The notes under the pieces: generated by a model
Seen by the model: only the letters and a program-made list of their open reading frames with translations
Database searches by the model: none
Told to the model about the DNA's origin: nothing
Translations under genes and position numbers: made by a program
Shown: positions 1-1,548 of the stretch, piece after piece
Position numbering within the stretch: the first letter of the stretch is position 1
How the letters are laid out: each line of letters starts with the position of its first letter
NCBI RefSeq assembly: GCF_030846775.1
Contig: NZ_CP132910.1
Coordinates: 530,001 to 594,000 of the forward strand
Reading direction: 5' to 3'
Length of the DNA stretch: 64,000 bases
DNA from: Geothrix sp. 21YS21S-2
Lineage (GTDB): Bacteria > Acidobacteriota > Holophagae > Holophagales > Holophagaceae

Positions 1-159
1 GATCGCCATCGTCCGCCGGTGTCCGGCACCACCGTCCCCGAGCACATTCTCCGGCGCGATCTCCCAGAAGGGCACGGAGTGTTCCGGCCCATCCAGGACC
101 TCCTGGATGTGGGGGCCCCGGAGGCCGAGGCCGACCCCGGTGAAGCCACGGTTCAGCAT
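1..159 (-). CDS. MNIO (DUF692/BufB-HvfB family) enzyme, N-terminal fragment cut by window edge
   Basis: Reading the minus strand from the ATG at 159 gives 53 residues running off the window. The start (GVGLGLRGPH, then FWEIAPENVLGDGG) is the typical N-terminus of MNIO enzymes, iron-dependent TIM-barrel oxygenases that modify cysteines in precursor peptides (methanobactin MbnB, bufferin BufB, HvfB); this family match is from memory. The His in GLRGPH and Glu/Asn in the EIAPEN segment are at positions conserved in the family. The ATG lies inside the last codons of the radical SAM gene (stop 155-153), and a strong AGGAGGTG ribosome site sits just upstream at about 166-173, so the two genes are translationally coupled. 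The active-site region is outside the window. Confidence 0.75.
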   Translation of the reverse strand, partial: MLNRGFTGVGLGLRGPHIQEVLDGPEHSVPFWEIAPENVLGDGGAGHRRTMAI

Positions 160-1184
160 GTGCCCACCTCCTGCGGCCTGAGCATTCCGGTCTCGGCGGC
201 GAAACAGCGGGGGTCCTCTCCGAACAGGTCCCCGGCCAGCAGGGCATGAACCCGGCAACCTCCGCAGTTCTGGGTCAGTTCGCAGTGCCCGCACTGCCCT
301 CCGAAGGCTCGCTTCCGGATCCGGACCATGTCCGGCGAATACCAGGCGGCCCGCAGGTAGTTCACGTGACCGACCCGATGGGCGAGGGGCCTGCAGGGAT
401 AGATGGACCCGTCCACATCCACGGAGAAGTGGTTGCGCCCGGCGACACAGCCCGCCCGGTTTTTCGCGAAGCCTGCGTCCGCGGAACAGTGGACGGGGTC
501 CTCGACGCCCACGGTGGACGCCCCCTCATGGGCGATGGCCCAGCGGTGGAACTCCCTGCGTTGCTCCCGGGTGATCTGGAGGAGTGCGGAACCCGCGCCC
601 ACCGGGAAGACTTCCCGCAGGTGGAAATGGAGCCCCAGGTCGTCCAGCTCCTCCACGAAACGTTGGAGATACGGATAGTTGGAGGCCGTCACGGTGGTGC
701 TCACCGTCAGGCGGAAGCCCATGCCCTTCAACATCCTCAAGGTCGCCATCGCGGTGTCGAAGACGCCCTGACCCCGGATGCCGTCGGTGTGCGGCTTCGG
801 GCCCTCCAGGCTCACCTGGATGAACCTCAGGCCCACCAGGTAGAGATCCCGGGCCAAGGCGCGGTTCATGCGTGTGCCGTTGGTGAAGAGAAGGGCGTCC
901 CCGCCCTTCGTCCCGATGATGTACTCCACGATCTCCACCAGATCTTTCCGGAGGGTGGGTTCTCCCCCAGAGAGATGGATATCGGGGAGGAACCCCTCGC
1001 TGGCCCCGAACGCGAAGATCGCGTCCAGGCGCCGCTTGATTTCCGGCAGTGCAGGCATCTCGCCACCGCTGTGGTTCGCGTCATAGCAGTGCGCGCAGGA
1101 GAGATTGCACGCGTGGAGAAGATGGAGTTGGACGGAAAAATAGGCATGGCCGCCATAGGAGGCTGCTTGTGCGGGGGTGGTCAT
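153..1184 (-). CDS. Radical SAM/SPASM peptide-modifying enzyme (ACGX-system type)
   Basis: A 343-residue protein. The radical SAM cluster motif CNLSCAHC (C26, C30, C33) lies in the first 35 residues, followed by the SAM-binding SGGEPTLR motif. The C-terminus has a SPASM-type cysteine array (CRPLAHRVG, then CGHCELTQNCGGC and a final C about 17 residues on) that would hold auxiliary Fe-S clusters. SPASM enzymes typically modify ribosomal peptides. The neighbouring upstream gene encodes a small exported protein with (A/S)CG motifs, matching the described pairing of a radical SAM/SPASM protein with ACGX-repeat peptides. ATG 1184 is chosen because a GGAGG site precedes it and homology begins there; an open frame continues to 1322 but is Pro/Arg-rich and unlikely coding. 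The stop overlaps the MNIO start. Confidence 0.85.
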   Translation of the reverse strand: MTTPAQAASYGGHAYFSVQLHLLHACNLSCAHCYDANHSGGEMPALPEIKRRLDAIFAFGASEGFLPDIHLSGGEPTLRKDLVEIVEYIIGTKGGDALLFTNGTRMNRALARDLYLVGLRFIQVSLEGPKPHTDGIRGQGVFDTAMATLRMLKGMGFRLTVSTTVTASNYPYLQRFVEELDDLGLHFHLREVFPVGAGSALLQITREQRREFHRWAIAHEGASTVGVEDPVHCSADAGFAKNRAGCVAGRNHFSVDVDGSIYPCRPLAHRVGHVNYLRAAWYSPDMVRIRKRAFGGQCGHCELTQNCGGCRVHALLAGDLFGEDPRCFAAETGMLRPQEVGTC

Positions 1185-1242
1185 GATGCGCCTCCATGGG
1201 CGGCGGGGCGGGGGGGGGCCGAGGGCCCACCCCCAACCGGGT

Positions 1243-1548
1243 CTACTTGGTGGCTTCAGGCTTCTTCTCGGCCTTCTTGGGCTTCTTGGGCTTGGTGTCC
1301 TTGCTGCCGCAGGAACCCGCACCGCAGGCGCCCTCCTTGCCGCCCTTCTTCACTTCGCCGGCGTCCTTCTTCTCGTCGCCCTTCTTGTCCTCCTTGGACT
1401 CCTTGGCACCACAGGAACCGGACATGTCGTGGGCTTCAATGGAAGCCGAGGACTTGGCCACCTGGGCTGCCCCCAGAGTGGGGGCCGCGCCGGTCAGGAG
1501 GACCGTGGCGGCGAAGAGGCCGCTGAGGTGTATCAGTTGATTGGTCAT
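1243..1548 (-). CDS. Small exported Cys-containing peptide with (A/S)CG motifs, probable modification substrate
   Basis: A 101-residue protein with an N-terminal hydrophobic signal segment (residues about 7-27, ending LGAAQ). The mature part is almost entirely Lys, Glu, Asp, Gly and Ala. Its only cysteines are in three motifs: GSCGA, GACGA and GSCGS. The C-terminal 20 residues are mostly Lys and Pro. A GGAGAT ribosome site precedes the ATG. This is the architecture of ACGX-repeat target peptides and is also similar to HvfA-type metallophore precursors with EGxCG motifs. With the downstream radical SAM/SPASM and MNIO genes it is the likely substrate; modified cysteines could bind metal such as copper. 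The function is inferred from context. Confidence 0.75.
   Translation of the reverse strand: MTNQLIHLSGLFAATVLLTGAAPTLGAAQVAKSSASIEAHDMSGSCGAKESKEDKKGDEKKDAGEVKKGGKEGACGAGSCGSKDTKPKKPKKAEKKPEATK

Follow-up and report, generated by a model that had tools for sequence, protein, structure and literature searches.

Geothrix sp. 21YS21S-2 carries, at the left edge of the window analysed here (64,000 nucleotides, G000:C1:530001-594000; the genome is a single contig of 5.25 Mb), an operon that encodes a peptide with Cys-Gly motifs together with both an MNIO-family oxygenase and a radical SAM/SPASM enzyme (rSAM), and we consider it probable that the two enzymes mature this one peptide into a hybrid captophorin-like RiPP. 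The ordinary Holophagaceae operon consists of peptide, MNIO, HvfC-type and, optionally, YceI genes; the window cassette is that operon with an rSAM gene behind the peptide gene and with a changed core. Judged by its sequence, the base system is of a known kind, the oxazolin/captophorin (HvfABC) type of copper-binding thiooxazole RiPP, and what appears to be new is MNIO plus rSAM on an HvfA-type peptide. Joint action is supported by a gene order kept between the window genome and Geothrix fermentans, by an independent peptide-rSAM pair in the myxococcote genome G475 and by a core motif that tracks the rSAM.

The genes lie on the minus strand in the order peptide, rSAM/SPASM, MNIO, HvfC-type partner, thioredoxin-like protein and YceI, followed by two spondin-domain proteins (Table 1). 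The original prediction had described the first three genes as being in coupled order, which holds for the rSAM-MNIO junction, where the MNIO ATG at 159 and the rSAM stop at 153 share a 7-nt overlap (ATGCTGA), but not for the peptide-rSAM junction, the sole non-overlapping one in the peptide-to-thioredoxin run; the MNIO-HvfC and HvfC-thioredoxin junctions overlap by 8 and 4 nt. The hairpin in the peptide-rSAM spacer is possibly an attenuator or a processing site. Left of the window, where a DoxX-like partner might have been expected, we found the remainder of the MNIO gene (L004:6308-7159) and the HvfC/DUF2063, thioredoxin-like and YceI genes, but no DoxX among ten proteins scanned from 11 kb around the cassette. 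The tandem spondin-domain genes occupy L004:2734-4273, also left of the window.

Table 1. Cassette features and their positions in the window.
Feature	Length	Position	Strand	Details
Precursor peptide	101 aa	1243..1548	-	Based on sequence and on a homologue that Geothrix fermentans has in the corresponding position
Peptide-rSAM spacer	58 nt	1185..1242	-	Stable GC-rich hairpin, -34 kcal/mol
Radical SAM/SPASM enzyme	343 aa	153..1184	-	ATG at 1184, stop at 153
MNIO gene, 5' part	283 aa (whole gene)	1..159	-	Runs on left of the window to G000:C1:529308

The peptide has a signal-peptide-like, leader-like N-terminus free of Lys and Arg, and, as predicted, its only three Cys residues sit in (A/S)CG motifs (SGSCG, EGACG and GSCGS), with EGACGAGSCGSK as the core element. 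The motif CGAG[ST]CG is found in all three rSAM-linked peptides (EGACGAGSCGSK; SGSCGAGSCGGK with DGSCGAGSCGGK; EGSCGAGTCGSK) and in none of the 30 readable peptides from rSAM-less Holophagaceae HvfA/HvfB-type loci, which instead contain CGKG[ST]CG (21/30) or CGGGGGCG (7/30). A DNA scan for CGAG[ST]CG across nine rSAM-bearing genomes returned CG-peptide matches solely in the three peptides adjoining rSAM; elsewhere the motif was read in the wrong frame, belonged to a short frame of doubtful status or fell within an unrelated protein. DGSCGK repeats were found in peptides of related loci. A core change from CGKG to CGAG accompanies the presence of the rSAM, and shared ancestry accounts for part of this contrast. 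Since many rSAM-less Holophagaceae loci carry YceI and CGKG-type peptides, we read the window cassette as the ordinary operon with an rSAM gene inserted; YceI itself was for the same reason set aside as a mark of rSAM cassettes.

The predicted radical SAM/SPASM identity of the second gene product was borne out by matches above cut-off to PF04055 (63 bits) and to the SPASM domain PF13186 (28 bits). It has the two features of radical SAM/SPASM peptide maturases, a CxxxCxxC motif (residues 26-33) and a seven-Cys SPASM domain (Cys 246, 264, 298, 301, 307, 310 and 327, invariant in eight homologues), which includes a CxxCx5CxxC block. In NCBIfam, the SbtM model TIGR04082 matched all eight homologues with the best E-value over the set (1.2e-35), followed by ACGX (1.5e-35), with NirJ2, MftC and AhbD close behind. 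Membership was rejected for SbtM (111.1 bits against a cut-off of 350), for the sacti- and ranthipeptide maturase models StsB (64.3 of 625) and PapB (73.1 of 340), for the mycofactocin and NirJ/AhbD families (far under cut-off) and for the ACGX system (TIGR04340, 110.5 of 400). The last result qualifies the original prediction, which had pointed to ACGX systems as a precedent and to family searches of all three proteins: these recovered the enzyme domains, but the peptide had no match in NCBIfam or Pfam. Two true SbtM proteins occur in the phylum, and both branch far from the window rSAM in the tree. The AlphaFold model (mean pLDDT 67, low in the SPASM region) is closest in fold to SkfB, a sactipeptide maturase (Foldseek E 3.5e-13), with SuiB next, a ranking to be read with the weakness of that region; SkfB is also the top PDB match by sequence profile, and its model, TIGR04403, is matched by one of the eight homologues below E 1e-15.

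Completed from the DNA left of the window, the third gene proved to encode an MNIO, as the original prediction had held (PF05114 MbnB_TglH_ChrH, 284.8 bits, E 7.5e-85, cut-off 25), which scores under the equivalog cut-offs for HvfB (246.6 of 360) and BufB (252.4 of 310). Its partner matches DUF2063 (PF09836, 43.3 bits) and NGO1945_C (PF22106, 41.4 bits), both above cut-off, and stays under the HvfC equivalog cut-off (110.4 of 142). Neither of the two MNIOs that accompany an rSAM belongs to the main Holophagaceae MNIO clade (support 96/96); their mutual grouping is weak (71/36) and involves long branches. Both have His after the ERD motif, a position occupied by Asn in 26 of 29 others, and based on an alignment with 3BWW we infer that this residue is probably the counterpart of the FonB specificity residue Phe250. 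In FonB, the residue following the catalytic Asp helps to set selectivity around Cys (PMC13097082).

The peptide and the enzymes were also found together in a related genome, as expected for a functional unit: Geothrix fermentans has peptide, rSAM, MNIO, HvfC and YceI genes in the order seen in the window, with protein identities of 72-75% for the rSAM, 65-66% for the MNIO and 65% for YceI, and a nearby AraC-type regulator is 61% identical to its counterpart there. The rSAM occurs in 2 of 77 Holophagaceae genomes and, among sampled genomes of the two phyla, in 2 of 396 from Acidobacteriota and 7 of 379 from Myxococcota; the wider Acidobacteriota sample (n=396) contained no further full cassette, leaving two genomes in all. 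MNIOs similar to that of the window are present in 46 of the 77 Holophagaceae genomes. In G475, a lipoprotein-like (S/A)CG peptide ending in EGSCGAGTCGSKKLL is encoded 4 bp upstream of the rSAM; no MNIO adjoins this pair and the sole MNIO match in the genome is a remnant, so the two enzymes need not act together. Nor is the rSAM family tied to such a peptide everywhere, since six of the seven Myxococcota homologues sit by other genes with no such peptide adjoining, four of them by a DEAD-box helicase. Genome-wide co-occurrence of MNIO and rSAM was set aside as evidence because 60% of Myxococcota (114/189) carry an MNIO anyway. Plasmid relatives are weak (~29-32% identical), and the one whose neighbours were read had no adjoining MNIO.

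Several further loci came to light in these genomes. The window's genome has a second MNIO locus at L027:1200-2316 (G000:C1, about 2,424,100-2,425,200), with a peptide that has RRCG/RRCA repeats and an HvfC-type gene after it, and a third at L028:1468-2650 (G000:C1, about 4,518,200-4,519,400), with a tandem DGSCGK peptide; neither has an rSAM. G475 also has a reading frame (L094:8268-9005) in which an internal deletion has apparently joined a leader like that of an exported peptide to part of an MNIO core; a gene for a copper-type P-type ATPase (L094:9161-11395) runs divergently from it, and the fusion may be an assembly artefact. Also on the contig with the G475 peptide-rSAM pair, ~3 kb from the pair, are an arsenite-methyltransferase-like gene and, as judged by eye, an ArsR-like regulator (L093:9603-10859). 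In Myxococcota MAGs that bear the rSAM, a protein of 470 aa that matches nothing in NCBIfam precedes an MNIO-DUF2063 fusion (~548 aa, scoring just above the BufB cut-off), and no Cys peptide lies nearby (L021:34-3102); no CG peptides were found near such fusions in two Myxococcota MAGs.

We propose that the peptide is made with what would be a Sec leader, and that the HvfC-type partner and the MNIO would then use O2 to turn Cys residues of the CG motifs into 5-thiooxazoles, by analogy with HvfBC and FonBC. HvfB and FonB install thiooxazole on Cys, and thiooxazole peptides bind copper (PMC13097082, PMC13419390). The rSAM/SPASM enzyme would make a second, O2-independent change at CGAG[ST]CG, most likely at Cys, as genetic linkage and motif suggest, with a thioether and a thiooxazole as candidate products. 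The product would be exported and, like its relatives, might bind copper or a different soft metal once in the periplasm; a role with copper is plausible, given that the thiooxazole peptides produced by relatives of MNIO and HvfC bind this metal.

Two variants of joint action differ in what the rSAM makes. In one, possible but on the doubtful side, the rSAM would close a sactionine- or ranthionine-type thioether inside CGAG[ST]CG and the MNIO would act on the remaining Cys only: SkfB is the closest solved structure by profile and by fold, and the motif places Ala, Ser and Thr, all known kinds of thioether acceptor, together with Cys, but the low scores against the sacti- and ranthipeptide models (64-73 bits against cut-offs of at least 340) argue against it, as does a core of three to four Cys, which leaves few for two reactions. 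We regard it as unlikely that the rSAM itself makes 5-thiooxazole like SbtM, with loss of four H per Cys, so that the operon would hold one O2-dependent and one O2-independent enzyme for a single heterocycle, their work divided by Cys residue or by O2 supply. Geothrix are anaerobes, which favours this variant, as does the match of all eight homologues to TIGR04082, and in vitro formation of thiooxazole from Cys is documented for SbtM (PMC11002830), whose product has a ~305 nm band in common with captophorins (PMC13097082); the score is nevertheless far from the SbtM cut-off, about equal to those of ACGX, NirJ2, MftC and AhbD, and the true SbtM sequences are distant in the tree. In its full form, this idea has two unrelated enzymes arriving at one 5-thiooxazole, the MNIO by a route that uses O2 and the SPASM rSAM by one that does not, which would secure a copper-binding peptide for an organism whose oxygen supply changes; it strikes us as quite unlikely.

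Two other explanations separate the enzymes. On the first, the rSAM gene would be a passenger that inserted into an ordinary HvfABC operon, with its product acting elsewhere and the peptide left to the MNIO. This would fit the patchy distribution of the rSAM and the six Myxococcota homologues with no adjoining peptide, but sits poorly with the independent pairing of peptide and rSAM in a different phylum, with the rSAM-specific motif and with an order kept at 65-75% protein identity; we think it improbable. A division of labour in which this peptide is the substrate of the rSAM, while the MNIO, or those of the other two loci, would chiefly serve other CG peptides in trans, seems equally improbable to us: the two further loci with CG peptides and the MNIO-free pair in G475 speak for it, but the rSAM-MNIO gene overlap, the order common to Geothrix fermentans and the difference of the cassette MNIO from others at the presumed specificity position speak against it. 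We conclude that action of both enzymes on one peptide, as originally predicted, is probably correct, but the claim of a new kind of hybrid holds in a narrower sense, since MNIO and rSAM on one RiPP are already known from aminopyruvatide and biphenomycin-like clusters (PMC10635010, PMC12257519).

Among known systems, the closest is captophorin/oxazolin (HvfA-HvfB-HvfC-HvfX, FonABC, gonophorin; also Buf_EGKCG/oxazolin), in which a repeated Cys-Gly peptide with a Sec leader, an MNIO and a DUF2063/PME1 partner come in that order; the window cassette shares the MNIO and partner and, putatively, a peptide of this type. The window cassette differs from it in the SPASM rSAM between peptide and MNIO, in YceI and thioredoxin-like genes where no DoxX was found (DoxX being frequent, not universal, in these clusters), in an MNIO and partner under the HvfB, BufB and HvfC equivalog cut-offs, and in the core, EGKCG in captophorins versus (E/D)G(A/S)CGAG(S/T)CG(S/G)K in rSAM-linked peptides. 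In a large MNIO survey, Buf_EGKCG/oxazolin clusters are described as differing combinations of precursor, MNIO, DUF2063 and DoxX genes, and no mention of an rSAM with them was found in its text (PMC12452194); in the papers searched, we found no account of rSAM and MNIO with an HvfA-type peptide. The SbtM system likewise has a SPASM rSAM acting on peptide Cys, to give the heterocycle that MNIOs otherwise make, but its enzyme belongs to another clade, and the window peptide has Cys only, with no in-frame UGA. The ACGX system pairs a SPASM rSAM with an ACGX-repeat peptide, whereas the window peptide, for all its SCG/ACG motifs, has a single ACG and no tandem ACGX array. In the Pbs (biphenomycin-like) and Apy (aminopyruvatide) systems one precursor is served by an MNIO and a radical SAM enzyme, as proposed here, but the Pbs rSAM depends on B12, the targeted residues of the precursors are Phe or Asp rather than Cys, and the MNIO is of another type. 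If our reading is true, two separate chemistries, those of MNIO and SPASM rSAM, meet on an HvfA-type copper-binding peptide, and the cassette offers a small, well-defined test case for a Cys-Gly core shared by two Cys-modifying enzymes, whether or not they form the same heterocycle.
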